Assembly: GCA_024407875.1 (NCBI GenBank)
Contig: JAKSVT010000010.1
Location: 1-60,877, forward strand
Direction of reading: 5' to 3'
Source: Alphaproteobacteria bacterium
GTDB lineage: Bacteria > Pseudomonadota > Alphaproteobacteria > CAAGCB01 > CAG-977
DNA: 60,877 nucleotides
In this document: in pieces, positions 38,622 through 50,632 of the stretch
Numbering within the stretch: position 1 is the first letter of the stretch
Layout of the letters: each line of letters starts with the position of its first letter
Translations under genes and position numbers: made by a program
The notes under the pieces: generated by a model
What the model saw: only the letters and a program-made list of their open reading frames with translations
What the model was told of the DNA's origin: nothing
The model's database searches: none

Positions 38622-38859
38622 GAGACTATATCCTTTATTGTAAAACTAAATTCTACATAAATTAAAAATTAATATCGCCTTTATATATAATAAAAATGAA
38701 TTTAAGGTAAAGAAAAAATGATTCTTTTATTCAAAATAAGTGCAAAAAAGATAAAAAAATAATAAAACAATTAAGATTAAATAAAAAAAGTTGATTTTTT
38801 GTCCATATAATACTAAAAACATCATTAGTAATATAAAGTGTGTTTTTGATGAGGGTAAT

Positions 38860-39201
38860 ATGGTTTCACATCAAACTGGACCGGAACAGGAAGGATTTTA
38901 TGATATCTTGCAAAATAGTGCAGGAGAATTATTGATATCTATTCGTGCTCGTGCAGGTGAACCTGACAGACCTCAAATAGTTTATGATGGCGGTAAGCAT
39001 GCGTTATTATACCGTCAACAAGGCTTTTCAATTACTTTAGATTTTATTCATCCTGAAGCTAGAGGACCATTATCTAAGGCAGAGAGCGTTTTAATCGTGG
39101 AATTTGAAGGAGGGGAGCTTATAAGAGAGTATATGGTTCCTGTTCGATTCGTTAAAAAACTTCCACTTTCTCCAGAAAATTTGCCATCAATGCCTAATTA
39201 A
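38860..39201 (+). CDS. Hypothetical protein preceding the complex I-like operon
   Basis: A 113-residue soluble protein from the ATG at 38,860 (GAGGG just upstream); it contains the blocks GFYDILQNSAGELLISIRARAGEPDRPQIVYDG and LDFIHPEARGPLSKAESVLIVEFEGGELI. It looks mostly beta-stranded and is not recognised. It lies 18 bases before the NuoA-like gene, so it may be the first gene of that operon; a role in the complex is possible but unsupported. The preceding 240 bases up to glgP hold both promoters and no gene. Confidence 0.6.
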   Translation: MVSHQTGPEQEGFYDILQNSAGELLISIRARAGEPDRPQIVYDGGKHALLYRQQGFSITLDFIHPEARGPLSKAESVLIVEFEGGELIREYMVPVRFVKKLPLSPENLPSMPN

Positions 39202-39219: not shown

Positions 39220-39519
39220 GTGATTGAACAAGAAGTTAGCTCATTAAAAAAAGATATTATTGATGACCACCAAACTGGATTTTTTGGTGGTTTTAATGTT
39301 ATTAATGTGGGACACAGAAGGTTTCCATTAAAATTAGCTTTTGTTTTGTTAATTTTTACATTGATAATTGTAGCTCTTGTTACGTTATTTGTATTAGTTG
39401 ATATGCTCAATAATCCAGGCAACTTTAAATATACAGAACTTTTGATTTTAACGGCTATATTATTCTTATCATTTATTTGTATATCTATTCGTTACACTAT
39501 AAAAAAGGGATTAGTGTAA
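39220..39519 (+). CDS. NuoA-like small membrane subunit (shortened, divergent)
   Basis: A 99-residue protein with two membrane helices starting at GTG. The C-terminal part (RRFPLKLAFVLLIFTLIIVALVTLFVL ... NFKYTELLILTAILFLSFICISIRYTIKKGLV) aligns by eye with helices 2-3 of NuoA, including the KKGxL end. The first NuoA helix and the acidic loop ahead of it (usual YECG) are not seen. Its TAA overlaps the nuoB-like ATG by one base. Position A in a nuo-ordered operon supports the call, but sequence similarity alone is weak. Confidence 0.5.
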   Translation: MIEQEVSSLKKDIIDDHQTGFFGGFNVINVGHRRFPLKLAFVLLIFTLIIVALVTLFVLVDMLNNPGNFKYTELLILTAILFLSFICISIRYTIKKGLV

Positions 39520-39950
39520 TGAATATAATTAAAACAAAATTAGAAGAACTAAATAGATTTTGGCAAAATGAAACTTTAACCGCATTTGTTTTGAACTTAG
39601 GGTGTTGCTCTTTTCAATGTAAGATAGAAAGTTTGTTAGGATTAAGAGTTGTATATAATCCAATTTTTGCCGATGTTTTAATAGTTAGCGGAATAATTAA
39701 TGACAAAAATAAAGAAGTTATTCTAAATGTTTATAAACAAATGGCTTCTCCAAAATTTGTAATGAGCGTTGGTAATTGTGCTTTTAATGGTGGCGTTTTT
39801 GAAGATTCAAAGGGTGTAATTAAAGGTCTAAAAGAGATATTGCCTGTAGATGTTTATATTCTTGGATGTAAAGACGGTTTTTCAAATGTTAGTGTTGCAA
39901 TTTCTGAGTTGCACAATAAAGTTTTAGGAAAAGATAAAAATGAATTTTAA
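39519..39950 (+). CDS. nuoB: NuoB-like [4Fe-4S] subunit (cluster N2 carrier)
   Basis: A 143-residue homologue of complex I NuoB and hydrogenase small subunits. All four N2 ligands are retained: adjacent Cys29-Cys30 in NLGCCSF, Cys87 in SVGNCAFNGG and Cys117 in ILGCKDG (usual GCPP). The segment VYKQMASPKFVMSVGNCAFNGGVF is close to canonical NuoB. ATG 39,519 gives a standard length; the upstream extension in frame lies inside the NuoA-like gene. It overlaps the nuoC-like gene by 11 bases. It should accept electrons from the NuoI-like protein. Confidence 0.85.
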   Translation: MNIIKTKLEELNRFWQNETLTAFVLNLGCCSFQCKIESLLGLRVVYNPIFADVLIVSGIINDKNKEVILNVYKQMASPKFVMSVGNCAFNGGVFEDSKGVIKGLKEILPVDVYILGCKDGFSNVSVAISELHNKVLGKDKNEF

Positions 39951-40425
39951 ACCTATAAACTTTAAAACTTTTGATGAATTTAAATCATATTTAGAAATTA
40001 GTTTTTCTAAAAGAGATTTGCTGGGCATTGATTCCTCTGACGAACAAATTTATTTAACAATTATTCCTACTGCTAATTTTAGGGTTATAAAGCGTTTAAA
40101 AGATGATAATAAATGTTCTTTTAATAGATTAATCGATATAACTGCTTATGAAGAAGACGGAAAAACTTTTTTAGTTTATTTATTAAATTCAGAAGAAAAC
40201 AATGTTTATTTACATGTGAAAACTTCTCTTGTAGATGACAACAGTGTTATATCTCTATATAAGCTTTATAAGAATTCTGCGGTTTTAGAATGTGAAGTTA
40301 GAGATTTCTATGGGATTTCTTTTTCAAGTCATCCAGATCAGAGACACTTGTTTTTCGATGAAAAAGATTGTCTTTCTAAAGACTATGTTGAGATTTTATC
40401 TAATGATGAGGGGGATAAATGTTAG
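39940..40425 (+). CDS. nuoC: NuoC-like subunit (30-kDa type)
   Basis: A 161-residue protein with the 30-kDa subunit core: FNRLIDITAYEEDG, a LHVKTSL strand and the C-terminal signature CEVRDFYGISFSSHPDQRHLFF (usual REVWDMFGIxFxGHPDLRRIL). It supports the NuoB-NuoD pair structurally and has no cofactor. Overlaps on both sides (11 and 7 bases) show tight coupling. The sequence is divergent but full length for a separate NuoC. Confidence 0.85.
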   Translation: MNFKPINFKTFDEFKSYLEISFSKRDLLGIDSSDEQIYLTIIPTANFRVIKRLKDDNKCSFNRLIDITAYEEDGKTFLVYLLNSEENNVYLHVKTSLVDDNSVISLYKLYKNSAVLECEVRDFYGISFSSHPDQRHLFFDEKDCLSKDYVEILSNDEGDKC

Positions 40426-41531
40426 GACATTTTGTAAATGTTGCTCCTGAACCAATAGATAATGTAGGGTGCTTTAGAATTGTTGCAAATTTGCTTAATG
40501 ATAAAATACAAAGATTAGATTTTTTTGTGGGGTATACTCATAAAGGAATTGAAAAAATAATCGAAAAGAATCCTATTTATAAAGGGTTAATTTTTGCTGA
40601 TAAGGTTTTTGCGTATCCTTTTTTTGGTCAATACCCATTAGTCTTAGCTGTAGAAAAATTAATGAATATTCATGTTCCTGTTAGAGCTCAAATGATTAGA
40701 GTTATGCTAATAGAACTAGAAAGAATAGAAGTATATTTAAAATATATAGGCGTAATGTCATCTTCTTCAGGAATTCAAATGCCAAAAGCTTTAGCTAATA
40801 GGCTAATAAGTAAATGGAGAGAGATGATAAATTCTTTATTCCATACTTCATCTCAAAACTATTTTAAAATAGGTGGTGTATATCAGGATATTAATACTGA
40901 TTTTGAAAGAATAGTTAAATCTAATATTTTGGAATTAAGATCTGTTTTAAAAGATTTATTATGTTTAACAGATAATATTTTTTTCCAAAAAAAATCAATA
41001 GGTATAGGCGTAATTTCAAAACAACAAATTAAAGATTATGGTTTGACAGGGATTATTGCAAGAGCAAGTGGAATAAATGATGATGTTAGAAAAAAATATC
41101 CATATGATTTTTATGCTAATTTAGATTTTGATATTCCTTTAAAAAAAGCAAGTGATGTTTATTCTAGATTTATTTTATATTTTGATGAAATTTATCAATC
41201 ATTATCAATTGTTGAACAGTTAATTACATATATGAAAAAACAAGCTCCAAATGAGCCTATTTTGGCAGAAGAGCTTTTAAAAGAAAAAGATTTTGATGAA
41301 AAGTATATAATTCCAAAAGGAGAAATATATATTCCAACAGAATCTGTTGTTGGACAAACAGGAGTTTACTTAAAGTCTGATGGAACAGTTCGTCCTGTTA
41401 GATGTCATTATAGATCGTCATCTTTGTCAAAATTATATGCATTAAATGAAATGTTTTCTAATATGACATATCAAGATTTAAGGTTTGCTCTTTCTAGTTT
41501 GGGCATTGAGATAAGTGAATGTGATAGGTAA
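40419..41531 (+). CDS. nuoD: NuoD-like subunit without NiFe ligands and without the quinone-site histidine
   Basis: A 370-residue 49-kDa-type subunit. VGYTHKGIEKIIEKN, VPVRAQMIRVMLIELERIEVYL, YFKIGGVYQD, GLTGIIARASGIN and GVYLKSDGTVRPVRCHYRSSS follow NuoD throughout. There is no CxxC at either end, so it is not a hydrogenase. The N-terminal HPxxHG loop that lines the quinone site is replaced by PIDNVG (residues 12-17); the tyrosine of the LDY motif may survive as Tyr66 in FAYPFF. What it reduces is unclear. Frame intact, overlaps nuoC by 7 bases. Confidence 0.85.
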   Translation: MLGHFVNVAPEPIDNVGCFRIVANLLNDKIQRLDFFVGYTHKGIEKIIEKNPIYKGLIFADKVFAYPFFGQYPLVLAVEKLMNIHVPVRAQMIRVMLIELERIEVYLKYIGVMSSSSGIQMPKALANRLISKWREMINSLFHTSSQNYFKIGGVYQDINTDFERIVKSNILELRSVLKDLLCLTDNIFFQKKSIGIGVISKQQIKDYGLTGIIARASGINDDVRKKYPYDFYANLDFDIPLKKASDVYSRFILYFDEIYQSLSIVEQLITYMKKQAPNEPILAEELLKEKDFDEKYIIPKGEIYIPTESVVGQTGVYLKSDGTVRPVRCHYRSSSLSKLYALNEMFSNMTYQDLRFALSSLGIEISECDR

Positions 41532-41534
41532 AAA

Positions 41535-42509
41535 ATGAATTTAGAACAATCTAGTAATTTTTTATCATATGCAATTGGATTTGGAAAAGTTATTGCTTAT
41601 TTCCTATTTATAATTACGTGTGCATTGTTTGTTCAATATATCCAAGATGTTTATAAAAGACATATGCAACTTAAGCCTTCTAATTCATTTAAGTTTGTTT
41701 TGGGACAAAATTTTAAATGGAAAAAAAGCGAATTAATGAACGTTAAAAGTAAAAAAATATACGTTTTAGCGCCAATTATATTTTTTATAGTTTCACTTAG
41801 CTTTTGCTATATTATTCCTCTGTTTCCTGTTAAAGATGAATCTTTGAATAAAATCTCAAAGTATGGATTATATTTCTCATCATTATGCTATCCTATTATG
41901 ATTAGCCTTTGCGTGCTTTGGTCTTGGAATGTTTCTATGGTTAGTACATTCTTTGCCGATGTTTATGTAGTTATTCAATTTATTTGTGCACAATTGATCA
42001 TTTTAATGATTAATTTGATTATTTTGCTAAGTGCTCATTCAGCAGACATAGCAGAGATTTCAAATGCTCAAGAAGTTTGGTATATGTTTAAGCATTTTCC
42101 TTTGTTCTTGTTATATATTTTCGCTACATTATTAATAACAGGACAAGAGCCGTTTAATTCTTTTCTTGCTCAAAAATCTTTATCTGGTGGCATCTTAAGT
42201 CCTTATTTTGGAAAATTAGGTCAAGTTTGTAAATTAGGATTTTCTGTTTTATTCTTATATATGGTTTTATTAATAGCTTATTTGTTTATGGGAGGAACAA
42301 ATCCTGTTATAGGTTTTGAAAATTATGGCGCGGAAGTCCAAATTTCATTGAAAGTTTTGTTTTTGCTGTTTTTTATGGGATTAATAAAAGCTTGTTTGCC
42401 TTTAATTTATCCTGCTCAAATAATAAAAATTACATATAAATACATTATGCCATTTTTAACAGTATGGTTGTTTGTTTGTATGCTTTTCCAAAAAGGATTT
42501 TTAAAATGA
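41535..42509 (+). CDS. nuoH: NuoH-like membrane subunit with degenerate E-channel loop
   Basis: A 324-residue protein of about eight membrane helices. PLFLLYIFATLLITGQEPFNSFLAQKSLSGGI aligns with the NuoH block PxFxxFFxAALAETNRxPFDLPEAESELVAG, but the acidic residues of ETNR and EAESE are gone (ITGQEPFN at residues 201-208, then AQKS). In complex I these residues link the quinone site to the proton path, so coupling must differ or be absent. Identification is by this block, size and operon position between D- and I-like genes. Its TGA overlaps the next ATG (ATGA). Confidence 0.75.
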   Translation: MNLEQSSNFLSYAIGFGKVIAYFLFIITCALFVQYIQDVYKRHMQLKPSNSFKFVLGQNFKWKKSELMNVKSKKIYVLAPIIFFIVSLSFCYIIPLFPVKDESLNKISKYGLYFSSLCYPIMISLCVLWSWNVSMVSTFFADVYVVIQFICAQLIILMINLIILLSAHSADIAEISNAQEVWYMFKHFPLFLLYIFATLLITGQEPFNSFLAQKSLSGGILSPYFGKLGQVCKLGFSVLFLYMVLLIAYLFMGGTNPVIGFENYGAEVQISLKVLFLLFFMGLIKACLPLIYPAQIIKITYKYIMPFLTVWLFVCMLFQKGFLK

Positions 42510-42835
42510 AAAATAATTTTTTTGATGCTTTTAAATCCATTTTGAGCGAATTAAAAATTGCGATTAAATATGCTTTTATGAACAAAACTTATAACGACAA
42601 TAATTCTCATAATATTAAAGATGCTAGATTTAATGTTATGCTTTATAAAACTTTGTGTAATAACTGCAGAAAATGTGTGAAAGTTTGTCCTGCAAATGCA
42701 ATAATTTATAATGAAAAAAATACTTCCAATGCTTGTAATGTTCAATTGGTTAGAAATAAATGTATTCAATGTGCTTTGTGTGCTGATGTTTGTGATAAAA
42801 ATGCAATTAAATATATAAAGGAAAATGAAAAATAA
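42506..42835 (+). CDS. nuoI: NuoI-like 2[4Fe-4S] ferredoxin subunit
   Basis: A 109-residue protein with a short amphipathic N-terminus and two intact CxxCxxCxxxC sets: CNNCRKCVKVCPANAI and CIQCALCADVCDKNAI (clusters N6a and N6b in complex I). With NuoE, NuoF and NuoG absent, this subunit is the probable electron entry point, presumably from a soluble ferredoxin. ATG 42,506 overlaps the nuoH stop by 4 bases; TAA overlaps the following ATG by one base. Slightly shorter than canonical NuoI. Confidence 0.88.
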   Translation: MKNNFFDAFKSILSELKIAIKYAFMNKTYNDNNSHNIKDARFNVMLYKTLCNNCRKCVKVCPANAIIYNEKNTSNACNVQLVRNKCIQCALCADVCDKNAIKYIKENEK

Positions 42836-43308
42836 TGGATAATTTGATTTGTTCAATTTTGATTATCTTGTTTGCTTTTTTATCTTTGTTTGAAAAAGAT
42901 ATTCTTAAAGTTTTAATGTATCATTTCGAAACTGTATTGGTAATTGGTATTTGGTTTGCTTTATCTCATTATCAACAAGCTTCGTACTTAATTGTGTTTA
43001 TAAAAATCTTTGAAATTTTAATATTAGGAATATTTGTTCTTTTCATTATTAGTCATAATACTTTGAAGTTCGGCGAAATTAAAAAAAGATATTATTTTAT
43101 ATTGCCTGTTATAATTTCTTTGTTTGGCGTACTAGGATATAATTTTGGAAAAGAAAAGGTTTTACAAAGATTTATAGATACTACAAATGCCACAGTTGTT
43201 ACTGATTTTTGCATTAATGTATCTTTATTAGGAACAATTATTATGGCTTCTATCATTGGAACAGGGATTGTTTTTATAAATTATCGTGTAGATGAGGTTA
43301 GAAAATGA
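42835..43308 (+). CDS. nuoJ: NuoJ-like membrane subunit
   Basis: A 157-residue protein with about five membrane helices, the right size and position for NuoJ. The N-terminal half (ILFAFLSLFEKDILKVLMYHFETVLVIGIWFAL) loosely follows NuoJ, and the middle helix LIVFIKIFEILILGIFVLFI stands where the TM3 pi-bulge helix (VIVYVGAVAVLFLFVVMM) would be; the conserved YVGA pattern is not kept. The call rests mainly on gene order. Four-base overlap with the next gene. Confidence 0.55.
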   Translation: MDNLICSILIILFAFLSLFEKDILKVLMYHFETVLVIGIWFALSHYQQASYLIVFIKIFEILILGIFVLFIISHNTLKFGEIKKRYYFILPVIISLFGVLGYNFGKEKVLQRFIDTTNATVVTDFCINVSLLGTIIMASIIGTGIVFINYRVDEVRK

Positions 43309-43604
43309 GTTTTATTATGCAATTACCTTTTTTCGAGATTACTTCATTTGCATTATTTGCTTTTGGTATATGTGGAATTTTTATTTACAAAGATCGCCAA
43401 ATTAGAATTTTAATTTATAGCTCTATGATTGTATTAGCAGCTTCAATAAATTTTATTAAAGCAGATTTGTTTTTTAATCAAAAAGACGGAGTTTCAATAA
43501 GCTTTATGGGCTTGTGTGTAGAGTGTGTTTATCTTGTTTGTATTTTATCAATGATGATTAATTATGTAAGACAAGTAGAACTGAAAAATACAGAAGGTGA
43601 ATAA
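43305..43604 (+). CDS. nuoK: NuoK-like membrane subunit lacking one channel glutamate
   Basis: A 99-residue protein with three membrane helices. FALFAFGICGIFIYKDRQIRILIYSSMIVLAASINF matches NuoK (ALFxIGxxGxxxRRNxIRxLMSLELMLNAVNLNF), with Ser40 where canonical Glu36 sits. The second channel glutamate, canonical Glu72, is kept as Glu73 in LCVECVYL. Loss of one of the pair would weaken or change the proton path. Overlaps the nuoJ-like gene by 4 bases. Confidence 0.7.
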   Translation: MSFIMQLPFFEITSFALFAFGICGIFIYKDRQIRILIYSSMIVLAASINFIKADLFFNQKDGVSISFMGLCVECVYLVCILSMMINYVRQVELKNTEGE

Positions 43605-43607
43605 GCA

Positions 43608-44549
43608 ATGACACATTTTTCTTTATTGTTTGTCTTAATGATTTTGCCTTTGATTGGATGCCTTTTTATTTGTTTTGTAAGAGGTAATGAAAATTTTGTA
43701 CGCTTAAACACTGTTCATATAGGAGTTTTGATATCAGGTTGTACGATAGCTACAGCTGTGCAATTTAGATATGCATTGAATAATTTAATAGAAGACACAT
43801 CTAAATTTACTTTAATGTTTGCAAAAAGTTTAGGTGTCGGGATAAGTCTTGGAATGGATGGCCTGTCATTTATATTTGTGATGTTGGCTACATTTTCTTT
43901 TTTAATTTGCGTTTTGTTAAGAAAAAAAAGAGTATTGATTCATTTTAGAGAACAAATGTTCTTAGTTCTTTTGTCTGAGTTTTTCTTAATATTAACATTA
44001 TGTGCAAGAGATTTGTTCTTGTTTTATATTTCATATGAATCAATGTTGATTTCGACTTTTGCATTATGTGTTTGTTCTGAAAAAGAAGAACAAATTAATG
44101 CTGTTAGAATAAATTGCTTATATTCAATTGCTGGATCTGGAATGCTATTGTTAGCCTTGTTAATGCTCTATAATATTTCAGGTAATTCTAGCTTTGAATA
44201 TATTAATTTGGAAAATATACCCAAAGATTATCAGTATATAATATTGACGTTATTGTTATTAAGTATAGCTTTAAAAATTGTACTTCCTATAATTCATGAT
44301 TGGTTGTTGTATAAAGAGTATAATGATAAAACAATTCCATTAACAGATAGAATAATTGAAGCTTTATACGTAAGAATTCCTGTATATGTTGTTTTCAGAA
44401 TTCTTTTGCCTTCCATGAATGTTGATAAAAACAAATTTATTTTAATTTTAGTTTTATCATTGATTTTGAGTGCTCCAAAAATTTGCTATCAATTAGTAAA
44501 TAGAGGTTATCAAAATTTATTAGAAGCTTTAAAAGAAAAAGAGGCCTAA
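43608..44549 (+). CDS. nuoM: NuoM-like antiporter-type subunit, C-terminally shortened
   Basis: A 313-residue protein against about 490-500 for NuoM. The N-terminal half is clear: SLGMDGLSFIFVMLATF, LCARDLFLFYISYESML with Glu144 (canonical Glu144), a GSGMLLLALLMLY block and LSIALKIVLPIIHDWL with Lys223 (canonical Lys234). The second antiporter half with its lysine and C-terminal helices is absent, and the stop is clean three bases before the next gene. A one-half-channel subunit is unusual. There is no NuoL gene. Confidence 0.75.
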   Translation: MTHFSLLFVLMILPLIGCLFICFVRGNENFVRLNTVHIGVLISGCTIATAVQFRYALNNLIEDTSKFTLMFAKSLGVGISLGMDGLSFIFVMLATFSFLICVLLRKKRVLIHFREQMFLVLLSEFFLILTLCARDLFLFYISYESMLISTFALCVCSEKEEQINAVRINCLYSIAGSGMLLLALLMLYNISGNSSFEYINLENIPKDYQYIILTLLLLSIALKIVLPIIHDWLLYKEYNDKTIPLTDRIIEALYVRIPVYVVFRILLPSMNVDKNKFILILVLSLILSAPKICYQLVNRGYQNLLEALKEKEA

Positions 44550-44551
44550 AA

Positions 44552-45955
44552 ATGATAGGATTTATACCAGAAACTATAGTATTTTTAGGTTGTTTATTAA
44601 TAGGATTTATTCTTCCTATTAATAAGTTTGTTCGCTATAAAACAAAGATAGCTGTAGGTGTTTTGATTTTATCATTAATGTCTCAATTCGTTATTAATAA
44701 AACTCTTGAAACAACGCGTTATTTTAATAATGCTATGACTAATGATAAGTTTGTTATTATTTTGGAAAGCGTATTAACTTTTGGGGGCATTTTTGCATTA
44801 ATTTTAAGTGATGAATGGTTAAGATTAAAAGCTCACAAAGGTTTTGAATTCGTTTGGTTCGTTCTATTATCAATATTTGGGATGTTAATAGGTATATCCT
44901 CAAATAGTTTTATGGTTATGTTTTTGGGAATAGAACTAGCTGAGATTTCAATTTCTTATTTGTTAACTCATAAACAATTTAGTGAAAAATCCATATATTC
45001 AGAAATTAAATATGGAAATATTTCTAAAATTTGTTCTGCTGTTTTTTTGTTTGGTATTTCACTTGTTTATTTAAAAACTGGATACTTGAACTTTGATTAT
45101 GTCGAGGAAACTCTACTATTAGATGAATACAGCAAATCAAATGTTATGATGTTTGGTGTATTTGCCTGCTTGTTAATTTTATTAATAAGATTGGGGTTAA
45201 TTCCCCCATATAGTTTAAAAATAAATTTTTATGAAAGAGCTCCTGGTGCTGTTAGCTCATTTTGGGGGATTTGTGAGTCTGTATTTTTAATTTCTTGTCT
45301 AGGCCGTTTAGGTTTTGATGTTTTTCATCCGTTGTTAAAAGACTATATTAATATAGCTTTGAAAATAATAGGCGTCTTTGCTGTTTTGTTCGGATCTCTT
45401 GGAATGTTAAGAGAAAAAAATATAAAAAGATTTTCAGGCTATTGTGTTTTGATGATGAATGGGTTAGCTGTCTCTTGTTTATCTTCATTAAACAATAATC
45501 ATTTCTTGTGCTTCGTTATTTTAAACTGCTTTATTATGATTGGCTTGTTCTCAATTCAATTGTCTTTAAAGGAAGATAATAATTATGTAGATGATATTAA
45601 TTGCCTTGAAGGTTTAGGACATATAAGCCCTTTATATGGAGCTATGCTTGGTGTAATTTTATTATCTATTGTTGGCTTGCCTCCAATTGGTAGTTTTTGT
45701 GCAAAGATTTTTATATATGAGGCTCTAAGAAAATCCGGTGATTTTATAACAATCTTTTGTTTAATATTAGCATCATTGCCCGCAGTATACTCTGTTTTAA
45801 GAATTATTTGTTTAATGTATGCATATAAAAACAAATTTGAAATCTTTAAGGTTTCTAATTCATGTAAATGGGGTATTTTTTTAGGATTTTTAATTTCAAT
45901 TATAGCTCCATTTTTCGTTGAGTATTTAAACAATTTAATTGAGACAATTAAATGA
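44552..45955 (+). CDS. nuoN: NuoN-like antiporter-type subunit
   Basis: A 467-residue protein with about 13-14 membrane helices. MFLGIELAEISISYLL with Glu128, IRLGLIPPYSLKINFYERAPGAVSSFWG (canonical FKLxxxPFHxWxPDVYEGAPTPVTAF, lysine changed to arginine), YCVLMMNGLAVS and LSIVGLPPIGSFCAKIFIYEALR identify it as NuoN. It is full length. Its stop overlaps birA by 4 bases, the same junction as in typical alphaproteobacterial nuo operons. Confidence 0.8.
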   Translation: MIGFIPETIVFLGCLLIGFILPINKFVRYKTKIAVGVLILSLMSQFVINKTLETTRYFNNAMTNDKFVIILESVLTFGGIFALILSDEWLRLKAHKGFEFVWFVLLSIFGMLIGISSNSFMVMFLGIELAEISISYLLTHKQFSEKSIYSEIKYGNISKICSAVFLFGISLVYLKTGYLNFDYVEETLLLDEYSKSNVMMFGVFACLLILLIRLGLIPPYSLKINFYERAPGAVSSFWGICESVFLISCLGRLGFDVFHPLLKDYINIALKIIGVFAVLFGSLGMLREKNIKRFSGYCVLMMNGLAVSCLSSLNNNHFLCFVILNCFIMIGLFSIQLSLKEDNNYVDDINCLEGLGHISPLYGAMLGVILLSIVGLPPIGSFCAKIFIYEALRKSGDFITIFCLILASLPAVYSVLRIICLMYAYKNKFEIFKVSNSCKWGIFLGFLISIIAPFFVEYLNNLIETIK

Positions 45956-46662
45956 CGATTTTTGTATATAAAGACATAACCAATAGTACAAATGATGATG
46001 TCCTCTCTTTTTGTGAAGAAGATATAGCTAATTGTGTTTGTGTCGTTGCAAAAAAACAAATTATGGGTAGAGGTAGATCCGGAAGAAAGTGGATTGGTGA
46101 AGAAGGAAATTTGTATTTATCAATTGGCGAATATATAGAAAATCTCGATAAAGCTTCTAATTATACTTTTATTGCAGCGTTAAGTGTTTTTTTTGTATTA
46201 AAAGAATTGTTAAAAGGTTGCAAAGCAGAAGTAAAAATTAAATGGCCAAATGATATTTTGATTAATTCAAAAAAGTGTTGCGGCATATTATTACAATGTG
46301 ATGGAAATCATAAGTTAGCAATAGGGGTTGGAATTAATATTAATCCTGTAAATTCTGATGAATTAATTTATCCTGTTGTTTCATTAAAAGAATTTAATAT
46401 TGAAATAGAAGCAAATACACTAGCAGAAAAAATTTTAGAACAATTTAATTTGTTGAAAGCTAAAAACTTTTCATATATTTTATCAACTTGGAAAGAAAAT
46501 GCTTTGGGAATTGGTGAAAAAATAGGAGTTTCTCTTGTAAATGAAAAGCTAGAGGGGACTTTTGTTGATTTAGATAGTTCTGGAGCATTACTTTTAAAAG
46601 TTGGAGAAGAAATTAAAAAAATTACAGCAGGGGATGTGTTTTTCCCAAATAAACAAAATTAG
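45952..46662 (+). CDS. birA: Biotin-[acetyl-CoA-carboxylase] ligase BirA
   Basis: A 236-residue biotin protein ligase without the N-terminal DNA-binding domain, so it is a ligase and not a repressor. TNSTNDDVLSF, the biotinyl-AMP loop MGRGRSGRKWIGEEGNLYLSI and KIKWPNDILINSKKCCGILLQ are present, with the small C-terminal SH3-like domain. Overlap with the nuoN-like gene preserves the alphaproteobacterial nuoN-birA arrangement; type III pantothenate kinase, which often follows, is absent here. Confidence 0.93.
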   Translation: MTIFVYKDITNSTNDDVLSFCEEDIANCVCVVAKKQIMGRGRSGRKWIGEEGNLYLSIGEYIENLDKASNYTFIAALSVFFVLKELLKGCKAEVKIKWPNDILINSKKCCGILLQCDGNHKLAIGVGININPVNSDELIYPVVSLKEFNIEIEANTLAEKILEQFNLLKAKNFSYILSTWKENALGIGEKIGVSLVNEKLEGTFVDLDSSGALLLKVGEEIKKITAGDVFFPNKQN

Positions 46663-46671
46663 GAAGATAAA

Positions 46672-48339
46672 ATGGATAATAATGTAGAGCCTGTATATGT
46701 TGATGTTCCAAAAGAAGGTTTATACCTTGTACCACTAGGTGGTGTTGGTGAAATTGGAATGAATTTTTATCTTTATTGCTGTGATGGGCAATGGATAGTT
46801 GTTGATTGTGGTGTAGGTTTTGCTGGGGATAATTGTCCTGGAATTGATATGCTTATTCCAAGTGTTGAATTTATTCAATCAAAAGGAATTAAGGTTGACG
46901 CATTAATTATTACTCATGCTCATGAAGATCATTTGGGGGCTGTAGGATTTTTGTGGCGTGATTTACATTGTCCTATCTATACAACAGATTTTTGTGCAGA
47001 AATGCTAGAAACAAAATTAGATGAAGCAGGCTTGTTAGGTAGAGTAAATGTTGAACGCTTTAATGATGGTGATGAATTAGAATTAGGAAATTTTGATATT
47101 GAATTTTATGGCGTTAACCATTCAGTTCCAGAAGCTTGTGCTTTATTAATTAAAACAAAATATGGAAATGTTTTCCATACGGGTGATTGGCGTTTTGATA
47201 AAGATCCTGTTGTTGGAAAATTAGAAGATTTAAATAAATTAAAAAAAGAAAAAATATTAGCTGTAGTAGGTGATTCTACTAATGTTTTTGTAGAAGAAGA
47301 TATTGCTTCTGAAATGGAAGTTAGAGAATCTTTAGTAGAACTATTTAGTAAATATAAAGGACGCGGTATTGCTGTTACTTGTTTTGCTTCAAATGTTGGA
47401 AGAATTGAAAGTATAGCTTATGCGGCTAATAGAAATAATAGAGAAGTTTGTTTGGTAGGTAAATCTTTGTGGCGTGTTGAAGGCGCTGGTAGAGCTTGTG
47501 GATATTTTAGAGATTACCCTGCTTTATTAACAGATGATGAAGCCAGAGAATATGAGCCGGATAAAATTGTTTATGTATGTACAGGTTGTCAAGGCGAATC
47601 AAGAGCCGCATTAAATAGTTTATCTTATGATGTAGGTCCAATTCATTTAAAGAAAAATGACGTTGTTATTTTCTCTTCAAGAGTTATTCCTGGTAATGAA
47701 ACAGCTATTAATAATATTCAAAATAGATTTATAGCAAAAGGCATTGAAGTTGTTACAACAAAAGAAGCTTTAACTCATGTATCAGGCCATTCAAGTAAGA
47801 AAGATATTCAAAAATTATATGATATTTTAAAGCCTGAAATTTCTATTCCTGTTCATGGTGAAACTTCACATTTGTATGAACATGCTGATGTTGCACAAGA
47901 AAAAGGTGTAAAAAAAGTACATATTATTAAAGATGGTGATGTAGTTAGAATTGAAAAAGATAATTCTGAAATAATTGGTGAAGTTGTAACAGGCATTTTA
48001 GCATTAGACGGAAAGAAATTAATTCCTCTTCGTTCGGATGTTTTAAAGAAAAGACGTCGTATGATTGAAGATGGATCTGTTGTAGCAACAGTTGTTCTTG
48101 ATAAAGAAGGAAATGTATTTGGAAAAGTACAATTTTCAGCAGTTGGATTAATTGAAGAAAATTCTCCAGAATTTGATAAAATGGATGAAAACGTTAAGCT
48201 GGAATTATCAAGATTAACCCCAGAATCTAGATTGATAGATCAGACTGTAATAGATACTGTTAAATCTGCTTCTAGAAAAATAGTTATGGAAGTTTATGGA
48301 CGTCGTCCTATGGTCGATGTTCATTTAGTAAGAATTTAG
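46672..48339 (+). CDS. rnj: Ribonuclease J
   Basis: A 555-residue metallo-beta-lactamase/beta-CASP ribonuclease. Metal motifs HAHEDHLGAVGFL, HTGDWRFD and the CASP block (GDSTNVFVEE, FASNVGRIESI, VSGHSSKKDI, PVHGETSHL) are complete, with the C-terminal domain. It processes and degrades mRNA and rRNA. It follows birA by 9 bases, completing the nuo-birA-rnj order used here to identify the upstream operon. Confidence 0.95.
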   Translation: MDNNVEPVYVDVPKEGLYLVPLGGVGEIGMNFYLYCCDGQWIVVDCGVGFAGDNCPGIDMLIPSVEFIQSKGIKVDALIITHAHEDHLGAVGFLWRDLHCPIYTTDFCAEMLETKLDEAGLLGRVNVERFNDGDELELGNFDIEFYGVNHSVPEACALLIKTKYGNVFHTGDWRFDKDPVVGKLEDLNKLKKEKILAVVGDSTNVFVEEDIASEMEVRESLVELFSKYKGRGIAVTCFASNVGRIESIAYAANRNNREVCLVGKSLWRVEGAGRACGYFRDYPALLTDDEAREYEPDKIVYVCTGCQGESRAALNSLSYDVGPIHLKKNDVVIFSSRVIPGNETAINNIQNRFIAKGIEVVTTKEALTHVSGHSSKKDIQKLYDILKPEISIPVHGETSHLYEHADVAQEKGVKKVHIIKDGDVVRIEKDNSEIIGEVVTGILALDGKKLIPLRSDVLKKRRRMIEDGSVVATVVLDKEGNVFGKVQFSAVGLIEENSPEFDKMDENVKLELSRLTPESRLIDQTVIDTVKSASRKIVMEVYGRRPMVDVHLVRI

Positions 48340-48403: not shown

Positions 48404-50632
48404 ATGCAAAAATTAAACGTTAAAAAGTTGATTTGTTTTGTAACTGTAATTTTGCTTTATTCTAATGTTGCAAAATCAGAAGGAGAGCCTACTGATATAA
48501 CAGAAACACTAATTAACTCTTATGTTTCTAAATATACTAAAGATAATTCTGATATTATAATAAAATCAGGAACTTTAGGTGGAGATACTTCTGTTCCAGA
48601 TTTACAAAGAAATCTTAATACTGTTATTGAAGTTTCTTCTAAATGTTCTGCATCTGCAGGAGGAGAAGGCTGTAAAGTGGATTTTTCAAATGAAAATGGA
48701 GTAGCCCCTTTTATCGTCGGAGGAAGAAGTTATGAAGGGACCTCATATAATGATACACTTACAGTTCAAGCAGAGAAAATGTATTCAGGATCTGCTACGA
48801 AATTAAATGTTAGGGTTGAGCAAGGATCTACTTTTAATTTAAAAGGTTTAAATTTAGTTACTCCTGTTGGTAGAATAGAAAATAAAGGAACTGTAAATTT
48901 TGAAAATGTAAAATTTGATCATGAAAATTATCTTGAAGTAGTTGGAGTAGCAAGTGAAAATGATCCTGTTATAAATTCTAATATTAATTTCTCAGGGACA
49001 ACTACTTTTGTTCAAGGATATATTGATATTTCAGGAACTCCAAAAGACAAAATTAATGTTAACTTAAATGGCGGTATTTTTGATATTAGAGATTCTCAAC
49101 TCTATATAGGAAGGAAAGATAATACTACATTGAATGTATTAGGAAGTACTATTAGAATTAATTTATATGAAAGAGATCCTGGCAGTGGAGAATATTCTTA
49201 TGGCAGAATTTCTCTTTCAAATATACCTGTTATAAAAGGAGGAACTCTCGAATTAGTTGTTGATGATACAATTGTTCTTGAAGACGAAGAAACAATAGAA
49301 GATTTGCATTTAATGGATGTTGAACAAACAAATGTCGATTATAGTTTTATTAAAGATTTAAATTTAACATCAAATTTGTATAGTTTAATGTTTAATTATG
49401 AAAAAAATTATTTTTATTTAATAAATTCAAAAAAACATTCTAAAGCAATGGAAAATATAAATGGTTCATCAGAACAAATAAAACAAGCTCAAGCTTTAGA
49501 TAATGTTGATAGAAGTGCACTAAATTCTGAAGGCCAAGTTATGATGAATGAGCTTGATGATTTGGCAAGAAAAGCAAATCAAAATCCTGCATTATATGCA
49601 AATGATTATAAAAAGGCTGTATCAGCATTGTTTGATACAGATGGTAGTAAAGACACAATTGCTCCTCAAGATCAAGCACAAATGGATATTACAAATTCTA
49701 TTGGTGATATTGTAGAAGGACGTGTGAGTGATGTTCTTGAGATTTCTGAAGAACCAGAAATTCCTTATTTAAGCAAACAGTATTCAATGAATGACACTAT
49801 CGTAAGATATGGTCGTAACGCTGGTGAAATTCGTTCTAAAAATGGTATTAGTGCTTTATGGGTTCAGGGAATGCATACTCATAGTAAATATTCAAAAGGT
49901 AGTGCTTTTCATATGGATGCAGATGGTGCAACTATGGGAGCGGACTTCCTTTTAGGTAATAATTTTACTGCAGGTGGTAGTTATTCATATACTTTCAGTG
50001 AAGTTAATATGATTGGTATGGATTCAATAAGTAAAACTAATAGCAATACATTTTCAGCGTATTTGGGATATAGAGCTGGTAAATTTATGTATCGTTTAAA
50101 TTCAAGCTATATGTTATCTAGAGTGAAGAGTGATACAGAAGTTACTAAAAATTCAAGAAAGATTTATAAGAAAGATTCTCATAATAATACTATTATGGCG
50201 TCTGTTACATATAAGCCAAATGCTTTTTCTTATACAGCAGGTTTAAGATATATTAAATTACATAATGCTACATACGAAACAAATACAAAAATGCGTGTAG
50301 AAGGATATAATAGTCATACAACTATTGCTTCAGCAAGTGTAGGCTATAGTAAATTTATAAAATTGGATAATTCTGTATCATTAATTCCTAATGCAAATGT
50401 TGGTTTTGGATATGAATTAAATAGAGATAACAATGTGTTGCTAATTCATTTGCCTGCAAATGTTACAATGTCTCAAAAAGTTAAGAATAATAAGAGAGAT
50501 TTTTATTCTTTAGGAGCAGGTTTGACTGCTAATGTTAAGGATGTAGGAATGTTTACTTTAGGTTATTCAGGGGCGTTTAAAGCAAATTTAAAATCTCACA
50601 CTATTACTTTAAATTATAAATATTCTTTCTAA
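48404..50632 (+). CDS. Autotransporter (type Va) with C-terminal beta-barrel
   Basis: A 742-residue protein. A signal peptide ends near residue 25 (NVAKSEG). Residues 30-330 form a beta-helix-like passenger with short repetitive strands (INNKG/FENVKF/INFSGTT style). A helical linker, about residues 340-450, leads to a 12-strand autotransporter domain starting ISALWVQGMHTHSKYS and ending ITLNYKYSF with the terminal aromatic. The passenger carries no recognised protease or adhesin motif. Surface display or adhesion is likely. Single-gene unit with its own terminator. Confidence 0.88.
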   Translation: MQKLNVKKLICFVTVILLYSNVAKSEGEPTDITETLINSYVSKYTKDNSDIIIKSGTLGGDTSVPDLQRNLNTVIEVSSKCSASAGGEGCKVDFSNENGVAPFIVGGRSYEGTSYNDTLTVQAEKMYSGSATKLNVRVEQGSTFNLKGLNLVTPVGRIENKGTVNFENVKFDHENYLEVVGVASENDPVINSNINFSGTTTFVQGYIDISGTPKDKINVNLNGGIFDIRDSQLYIGRKDNTTLNVLGSTIRINLYERDPGSGEYSYGRISLSNIPVIKGGTLELVVDDTIVLEDEETIEDLHLMDVEQTNVDYSFIKDLNLTSNLYSLMFNYEKNYFYLINSKKHSKAMENINGSSEQIKQAQALDNVDRSALNSEGQVMMNELDDLARKANQNPALYANDYKKAVSALFDTDGSKDTIAPQDQAQMDITNSIGDIVEGRVSDVLEISEEPEIPYLSKQYSMNDTIVRYGRNAGEIRSKNGISALWVQGMHTHSKYSKGSAFHMDADGATMGADFLLGNNFTAGGSYSYTFSEVNMIGMDSISKTNSNTFSAYLGYRAGKFMYRLNSSYMLSRVKSDTEVTKNSRKIYKKDSHNNTIMASVTYKPNAFSYTAGLRYIKLHNATYETNTKMRVEGYNSHTTIASASVGYSKFIKLDNSVSLIPNANVGFGYELNRDNNVLLIHLPANVTMSQKVKNNKRDFYSLGAGLTANVKDVGMFTLGYSGAFKANLKSHTITLNYKYSF

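Follow-up and report, generated by a model that had tools for sequence, protein, structure and literature searches.

A shortened complex I operon with a lost quinone site and retained iron-sulfur ligands in a gut-associated alphaproteobacterial family

The DNA analysed here, called the window, is a stretch of 60,877 nucleotides of contig JAKSVT010000010.1 from an alphaproteobacterial genome assembly (GCA_024407875.1), and positions 39220-45955 of its forward strand carry ten stop-free open reading frames (ORFs) that represent the nuo operon of respiratory complex I in a reduced form. Comparison with the related genomes of its family suggested, at a probability that we put at about 0.52, that the encoded complex is a shortened vertical descendant of alphaproteobacterial complex I, which is quinone-independent and probably fed by ferredoxin, and whose reduction is far advanced in the window, possibly to its last stage. 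The operon no longer encodes the NADH module, NuoG or NuoL, and only half of NuoM is left. Also lost are the quinone-headgroup residues and most of the charged path that leads from the quinone chamber towards the pumps. The complex retains the ligands of its iron-sulfur (Fe-S) wire, which comprises two clusters in NuoI and cluster N2 in NuoB. Below, G000 denotes the window's own genome, G001-G011 the other family members, and L with a number individual loci.

Loss of the quinone site and retention of the iron-sulfur ligands

The ten genes stand in the order A-B-C-D-H-I-J-K-M-N, which equals the nuo order with E, F, G and L missing, and adjoining genes overlap by up to 11 bases or lie up to 3 bases apart. 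Profile searches of each ORF against Pfam and NCBIfam named nine of the ten subunits, all nine (A, B, C, D, H, I, K, M and N) matching Pfam at E <= 0.001, with A and K under the curated cut-off; NuoJ (42835..43308; 157 amino acids, aa) has no library match and was named by its position and by alignment to the NuoJ of relatives. The homologous subunits of the respiratory complex I core are thus present in nuo order, and a first interpretation made without database searches (the sequence-only reading), which had described these ten genes as leading into birA and RNase J, is borne out by the ORF coordinates and the library matches.

Twelve family genomes including G000 were compared, 11 of which have NuoD. 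The quinone-headgroup residues of Thermus thermophilus Nqo4 are H38 and Y87 (PMC7684303), and the alignment by which this numbering was verified places Val16 and a Phe at these positions in the NuoD of the window (40419..41531; 370 aa; PF00346, E = 3e-53), so that neither the His nor the Tyr is present. In all 11 family genomes the NuoD motif GPQHPxxHG has become [A/S]PxPxxxxG, with both His gone, and the Tyr87 column is changed in 10, the Tyr being kept in G004. NuoD homologues of Bathyarchaeota-labelled loci (e.g., L071, L073 and L083) also have no equivalents of H38 and Y87 (WGPQHPM-SG, ERMVMxD).

Quinone synthesis was approached through PF01040, which we take to be the family of UbiA, MenA and MqnP. 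No UbiA-type quinone prenyltransferase was recognised in the eight family genomes searched, five of which, G000 among these, have no PF01040 match at all. The matching proteins of G001, G005 and G007 were rejected as quinone synthesis enzymes, as decaprenyl-phosphate phosphoribosyltransferase models score best (E 2e-52 to 3e-57, under those models' cut-offs) and the proteobacterial UbiA model gives 7e-8 to 2e-9. In addition, bd oxidase (PF01654) was found in none of the 12 family genomes and is present in G017, the sole outgroup searched. Because no prenyltransferase was recognised and bd oxidase is absent, quinone synthesis is very probably lacking in the family. The sequence-only reading had overlooked both the family-wide loss of the quinone site and the apparent loss of quinone.

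The residues that would couple the quinone site to the pumps have fared similarly. We take the two proton positions of NuoK to be Glu36 and Glu72. Both Glu are lost in 10 of 10 genomes: position 36 is Gln in eight, His in one and Ser in the window, position 72 is Gln in nine and Tyr in the window, and Gln stands at both in eight of 10 (window nuoK, 43305..43604; 99 aa; PF00420, E = 4e-5, under the cut-off; substitutions read from the alignment). In NuoH, no family row that covers them retains the Glu of YEVS, the Glu of AETNR or the first Glu of PEAE, and all eight Glu that are invariant among five outgroups are replaced in the window (41535..42509; 324 aa; PF00146, E = 9e-22). None of 10 family genomes keeps the Asp of the NuoA motif FDxE (Glu stands there in one); in the window NuoA (39220..39519; 99 aa, GTG start; PF00507, E = 2.5e-4, slightly under the cut-off; no NCBIfam match) the Asp is Ile and the Glu is Ala. 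In Escherichia coli, a chain of charged residues links the quinone site to the pumps (PMC8357420).

One alternative is that the complex works along the lines of the 11-subunit enzymes without NuoEFG, with quinone involved. It shares with them the absence of NuoEFG (PMC11238625), its Fe-S ligands are intact, and the basal G004 retains the Tyr at the Tyr87 position; however, several findings make it quite improbable: none of the 11 NuoD-bearing genomes has the quinone-site His, no UbiA/MenA/MqnP-type prenyltransferase was recognised, bd oxidase is absent and the coupling Glu are lost.

The Fe-S wire presents the opposite picture. In the window and G003, all 12 ligand Cys of clusters N6a, N6b and N2 are kept (four in NuoB, eight in NuoI), whereas other Cys positions are shared at only 2 of 85, at an overall identity of 27.5%. 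One more outgroup-invariant Cys of NuoB, presumably a non-ligand, is Leu in both. NuoB (39519..39950; 143 aa) matches PF01058 (8e-18) and the NuoB model NF005012 (1e-28). For NuoI (42506..42835; 109 aa, or 123 aa if translation starts at the upstream ATG at 42464), Pfam gives Fer4-type domains only (9e-12), and the top NCBIfam model is NuoI. This pattern bears on the idea that the membrane assembly only conducts ions or has a structural role, redox chemistry being irrelevant to it. Antiporter-type residues are indeed partly kept in NuoN and NuoM where redox-coupling ones are lost, but a non-redox role needs no Fe-S ligands, and their complete retention beside the loss of other Cys renders such an assembly very improbable.

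The membrane arm is shortened at its distal end. NuoM (43608..44549; 313 aa) covers positions 3-281 of the 486 of the NuoM model, whereas the full-length NuoM of ten relatives has 463-539 aa as called, one of these being clipped by a contig end. Its predicted structure (mean predicted local distance difference test score, pLDDT, 77.6) has eight long helices and a stub, the second half-channel being missing; MAFFT aligned the last ~24 residues with the C terminus of homologues, which is compatible with either an internal deletion or a C-terminal truncation. No NuoL was found in G000, where PF00361 matches only NuoM and NuoN genome-wide, so that of the three antiporter subunits L is missing and M is halved; the nuoK/nuoM junction (43605..43607) is the nuoL site in relatives. 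The sequence-only reading had the gene count right and overlooked the shortness of NuoM. The window NuoM retains the Glu of transmembrane helix (TM) 5 and the Lys of TM7, with the TM8 Lys replaced by Arg; NuoN (44552..45955; 467 aa; PF00361, 1e-25; NuoN TIGR01770, 2e-52) retains the TM5 Glu and the TM12 Lys, with Arg for the TM7 Lys and Ser for the TM8 Lys. Family-wide, antiporter residues fare better than coupling residues (NuoN TM5 Glu in 11 of 11, NuoM TM7 Lys in 10 of 11). That the assembler simply dropped nuoL and the second half of nuoM might be considered for a genome of 1.77 Mb in 47 contigs (96.6% complete), but the junctions are clean and in frame, stops and starts are closely spaced, and no stray L or M fragment was found elsewhere in the genome, which leaves such an artefact the least probable of the explanations weighed here.

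Vertical descent and stepwise loss within the family

Phylogenetic analysis of NuoD recovered the family as monophyletic (support 100) and distant from group 4 hydrogenases. It groups with Alphaproteobacteria and a Holosporaceae-labelled metagenome-assembled genome (MAG) with a support of 97 when L119 is left out, 90 when L119, G000 and G003 are left out, and only 27 with L119. The latter, a long-branch NuoD homologue from a Melainabacteria MAG, joins the family NuoD in one tree; the link is probably long-branch attraction to an Ehr-like sequence, although it may be real. Synteny, with birA and RNase J downstream, is common to the family and to outgroup stretches such as L044, and within the stretches covered both genes stand 3' of nuoN in all 11 NuoD-bearing family genomes. 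In the window, birA (45952..46662, forward strand; PF03099 and PF02237) and the RNase J gene (46672..48339, forward strand; PF22505 and PF17770) directly follow. Tree placement and synteny together support vertical descent of the locus from an ordinary alphaproteobacterial complex I; a horizontal origin is not favoured on the same grounds, and no close relative of the window NuoD turned up when viral contigs were scanned.

A group 4 [NiFe] hydrogenase is ruled out, in agreement with the sequence-only reading, by the missing NiFe ligands, the NuoD fold and the NuoD tree. The N-terminal CxxC is missing where hydrogenase rows read ERICGIC, the C-terminal end reads ISECDR with no CxxC, and the predicted NuoD structure (mean pLDDT 86.9) best matches NuoD chains of complex I.

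Surviving relatives record successive stages of the reduction. The basal G004 has all fourteen subunits, and its loci L035 and L060, which together include NuoE and NuoF, show that the NuoD His and both NuoK Glu are already gone; as a 14-gene genome has already lost the NuoD His, this loss preceded that of the NADH module. In seven genomes (G001, G002, G005, G006, G007, G008 and G010) nuoG directly follows nuoD with no E and F between, the absence of E and F in relatives referring to the interval between D and G. The contig of G011 ends within this interval, where E and F are therefore not scorable, and A, I, J and K of G010 lie outside the stretches covered. G003 is without E, F and G, its nuoH starting 3 bases past nuoD, and is the only one of the 11 NuoD-bearing genomes with an 11-gene content; the window falls short of it, being without E, F, G, L and half of M. 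Its nuoD/nuoH junction (41532..41534) corresponds to the site of nuoE, nuoF and nuoG in G004.

These losses nest, because the tree of BirA and RNase J (14 genomes) and that of eight Nuo subunits (16 genomes) both place G004 apart from the remaining family (support 81 and 100, respectively) and G000 and G003 as sisters (98 and 100). The relative position of G001 and G002 has a support of just 41 in the BirA and RNase J tree. The stripping is stepwise: E and F were lost, then G, then L with half of M. The proposal that an ordinary alphaproteobacterial nuo locus was reshaped by lineage-specific loss is hence upheld by synteny, the NuoD tree and the nested series, although the sequence-only reading did not see that the losses came in steps rather than in a single stripping.

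No second nuo set was found by searches for NuoC and NuoD, which have one match each in G000, and a hidden second operon was dropped from consideration. E, F and G are absent from the operon, and the only G000 protein matching PF01512 (NuoF) belongs to a three-gene [FeFe] hydrogenase set on contig C47; the genome-wide search for the NADH module covered NuoF and was not extended to NuoE or NuoG. In that set (L142:5785-10042), a trimeric [FeFe] hydrogenase has NuoE-, NuoF- and NuoG-like partners side by side; its best model is the NADH-dependent group A6 (745 bits, cut-off 765), and the general group A model passes its cut-off. We rejected the view that these NuoEF-like genes serve the Nuo remnant, as they form the [FeFe] hydrogenase, which may nevertheless interact with the remnant. 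The set lies directly upstream of flagellar genes (Flg_bb_rod, Bac_export_1).

As for the wider neighbourhood, a small conserved ORF lies 5' of nuoA (38791-39201), with 88-95% identity in five genome pairs and no NCBIfam or Pfam match; it is present in 10 of 11 family genomes, the short contig of G010 not reaching it. A glycogen phosphorylase gene stands farther upstream in nine of 11, with an additional ORF in between in G005 and G007. Downstream, 48404-50632 encodes an autotransporter with a PF03797 beta-domain (E = 2e-18). Within the operon, nuoC (39940..40425) encodes 161 aa and matches PF00329 (5e-20).

Maintenance, relaxation or decay

In the sister genus g3, the nuo genes are under purifying selection. 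Ratios of nonsynonymous to synonymous substitution rates (dN/dS), obtained with our own Nei-Gojobori script with NuoA and NuoJ left aside and with dS mostly high or saturated, are 0.086-0.125 for NuoD, 0.10-0.15 for NuoG, 0.13-0.17 for NuoH, 0.082-0.104 for NuoL, 0.084-0.110 for NuoM and 0.09-0.14 for NuoN over four g3 pairs, in which BirA gives 0.19-0.25 and RNase J 0.06-0.09. Values for NuoB and NuoI scatter more, up to 0.39, with dS partly saturated. The pair G001/G002 is intermediate (0.24-0.39 for subunits with finite dS). NuoG, where retained, keeps the ligands of what we take to be clusters N4 and N5 in nine of nine genomes, and the Cys of the presumed N1b are complete in six, all g3. 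A new Cys near the NuoG N5 motif (column 149) is shared by all nine family NuoGs, and the five outgroups do not have it.

For the window itself, two observations point to maintenance, namely the complete set of Fe-S ligands described above and the ten open frames. Of the non-ligand sites invariant in outgroups, the window keeps 250 of 706. In neutral simulations (500 runs per level, substitutions only, no indels), all ten frames stayed open in 38% of runs at 0.002 substitutions per site, 6.6% at 0.005, 0.4% at 0.01 and none at 0.02.

Several points weigh against a maintained, ferredoxin-fed enzyme. The dN/dS of G000 versus G003 reaches 0.43-0.94 over eight subunits, albeit at saturated dS on which the window estimate rests, as only four genomes of its genus are available; the comparison genes give 0.26 (RNase J), 0.41 (BirA) and 0.07 (GlgP). 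Terminal branches of the Nuo subunits exceed those of BirA and RNase J in G000 (1.51 versus 0.47) and G003 (1.21 versus 0.51), a pattern that outgroups reverse (0.35 versus 0.94 in G021, 0.40 versus 1.36 in G060, 0.43 versus 0.98 in G023). The long branch and the high dN/dS make a very recent relaxation of the window's nuo genes possible. In addition, the family-wide loss of the NuoK Glu casts doubt on canonical coupling even in the relatives. Finally, G009 (98% complete) is devoid of NuoD and of PF00361 proteins, so that the complex may be dispensable, although birA is unmatched there as well, and the cause would be a deletion covering both or a gap in the assembly.

From these points arises the main rival, in which the loss of quinone in a fermentative lineage left complex I substrate-less and eroding at both tips, so that the window represents a late stage with little or no redox function. 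The gradation of the losses from E and F through G to L with half of M, the strongly accelerated branches of G000 and G003 with their high dN/dS, the vanished coupling residues and G009 would all fit such a decaying relic, and we grant it a substantial chance, though one distinctly below even. Against it stand the 12 of 12 Fe-S Cys compared with 2 of 85 other Cys, the ten open frames, the purifying selection in g3 long after the quinone site was lost, and the presence of Gln at both NuoK positions in eight of 10 genomes, which is unlike random decay. The earlier claim of selection rather than decay therefore stands in part: the open frames and Fe-S Cys agree with it, and the accelerated branch and the loss of most proton-coupling residues do not; likewise, dN/dS is far from 1 in g3 and approaches it, at saturated dS, between G000 and G003. 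Since the Fe-S Cys, the open frames and the selection in g3 have to be set against the acceleration of the window, we judge the family complex to be maintained, and the window version to be maintained at the Fe-S wire but much relaxed elsewhere, where constraint may recently have been lost.

Proposed electron path and comparison with known systems

The genomic context gives some indication of how a quinone-independent descendant of complex I might be used. G000 looks like a fermenter, and the names of family MAGs include rumen (roe deer, sheep, water buffalo) and horse faeces sources. Proteins of the pyruvate:ferredoxin oxidoreductase (PFOR) family PF01855 are present in 12 of 12 family genomes, G000 having a full single-chain PFOR, and Rnf (PF03116) was found in none of the 12. 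With both NuoI cluster motifs intact, the ferredoxin-fed operation put forward in the sequence-only reading is plausible, if unproven. G000 also has two ATPase a-subunits, as do 11 of the 12 family genomes by their matches; in G000 one sits in an operon whose models for the c-subunit and gene 1 mark it as N-ATPase-type, the other in an ordinary F0 cluster (L149:3559-10437 and L150:996-3413).

We propose that ferredoxin reduced by PFOR would dock on NuoI, or through NuoG in those relatives that have it, and that electrons would run along N6a-N6b-N2. They might then exit to a small non-quinone acceptor in the former quinone chamber, or to another protein, a step modelled on MBS, the sulfane sulfur reductase of Pyrococcus furiosus, or on the Fpo-like complexes found in methanogens that have no phenazine. 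Where relatives keep L, M and N, this electron flow may still power ion pumping through an altered coupling path. The pump of the window would consist of NuoN and half of NuoM, and given how far the coupling axis has degraded, the complex there more probably serves as a redox outlet with weak coupling or none, late in its loss. A bolder version, which we hold to be less likely than not, is that the whole gut-associated family runs a new quinone-independent enzyme derived from true respiratory complex I, in which the acceptor is new and the coupling path is charge-neutralised by two Glu-to-Gln changes in the NuoK of most members, the window holding a working ten-subunit version with a half-antiporter NuoM. 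To our knowledge, the ten-subunit version would be the smallest complex I descendant, and nothing on the complex I of this lineage was found in the titles and abstracts covered from the open-licence literature, which for the larger result sets were those of the top-ranked entries.

Complex I is normally viewed as inseparable from quinone. Here, a lineage that started from the 14-subunit enzyme lost the quinone site, then the NADH module and then the distal pumps, and kept the Fe-S wire; as surviving relatives show most of these steps, the family offers a natural dissection of independently removable parts. It is also a test case for whether useful electron transfer can proceed without quinone and the usual coupling glutamates.

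With the canonical alphaproteobacterial 14-subunit complex I, the window complex shares homologous subunits, gene order, the downstream birA and RNase J, and the Fe-S ligands of NuoB and NuoI, and it differs in having no NADH module, NuoG or NuoL, in its halved NuoM, and in the lost quinone-site and coupling residues. Campylobacterota-type Nuo complexes are without NuoE and NuoF and are quinone reductases; seven family members resemble these in missing E and F and keeping G, whereas the Campylobacteraceae NuoDs examined retain HPxxH and the Tyr. The 11-subunit enzymes (e.g., Desulfitobacterium, NDH-1 and Fpo-like types) are likewise without NuoEFG and presumed to receive electrons from ferredoxin or a similar donor, but NuoL and NuoM are present in them, and the quinone module is described as functioning as in the 14-subunit enzyme (PMC11238625), whereas the window has lost the quinone site and apparently the quinones, its reduction being derived from a 14-subunit ancestor.

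MBS is similar in principle. It is fed by ferredoxin, has no NiFe site and no H38/Y87 equivalents, and its electrons end at the proximal cluster, where polysulfide is reduced (PMC7684303). The window complex similarly has no NiFe ligands and no quinone His or Tyr; however, the proximal cluster has three Cys in MBS and four in the window, and MBS has an antiporter module as well as a charged axis (MbsM glutamates), an axis that is largely lost in the window. Nor is it a phylogenetic member of MBS or Ehr, its NuoD being placed beside Alphaproteobacteria in a tree built without any MBS sequence. Ehr complexes, which have no NiFe ligands, occur in bacteria where quinone synthesis was not identified (PMC6349859), and together with the complexes of Methanomassiliicoccales, whose acceptor is unidentified, they represent complex I relatives in hosts without quinone or methanophenazine pathways (PMC6349859, PMC7886697). 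Those complexes belong to hydrogenase-like or archaeal branches, whereas that of the window comes from a true respiratory complex I whose intermediates are alive in one family. MBS, Ehr and the 11-subunit enzymes are precedents, none of them in a relation of membership, and the window complex is a derived counterpart of the 'ancestral' MBS and Ehr complexes.

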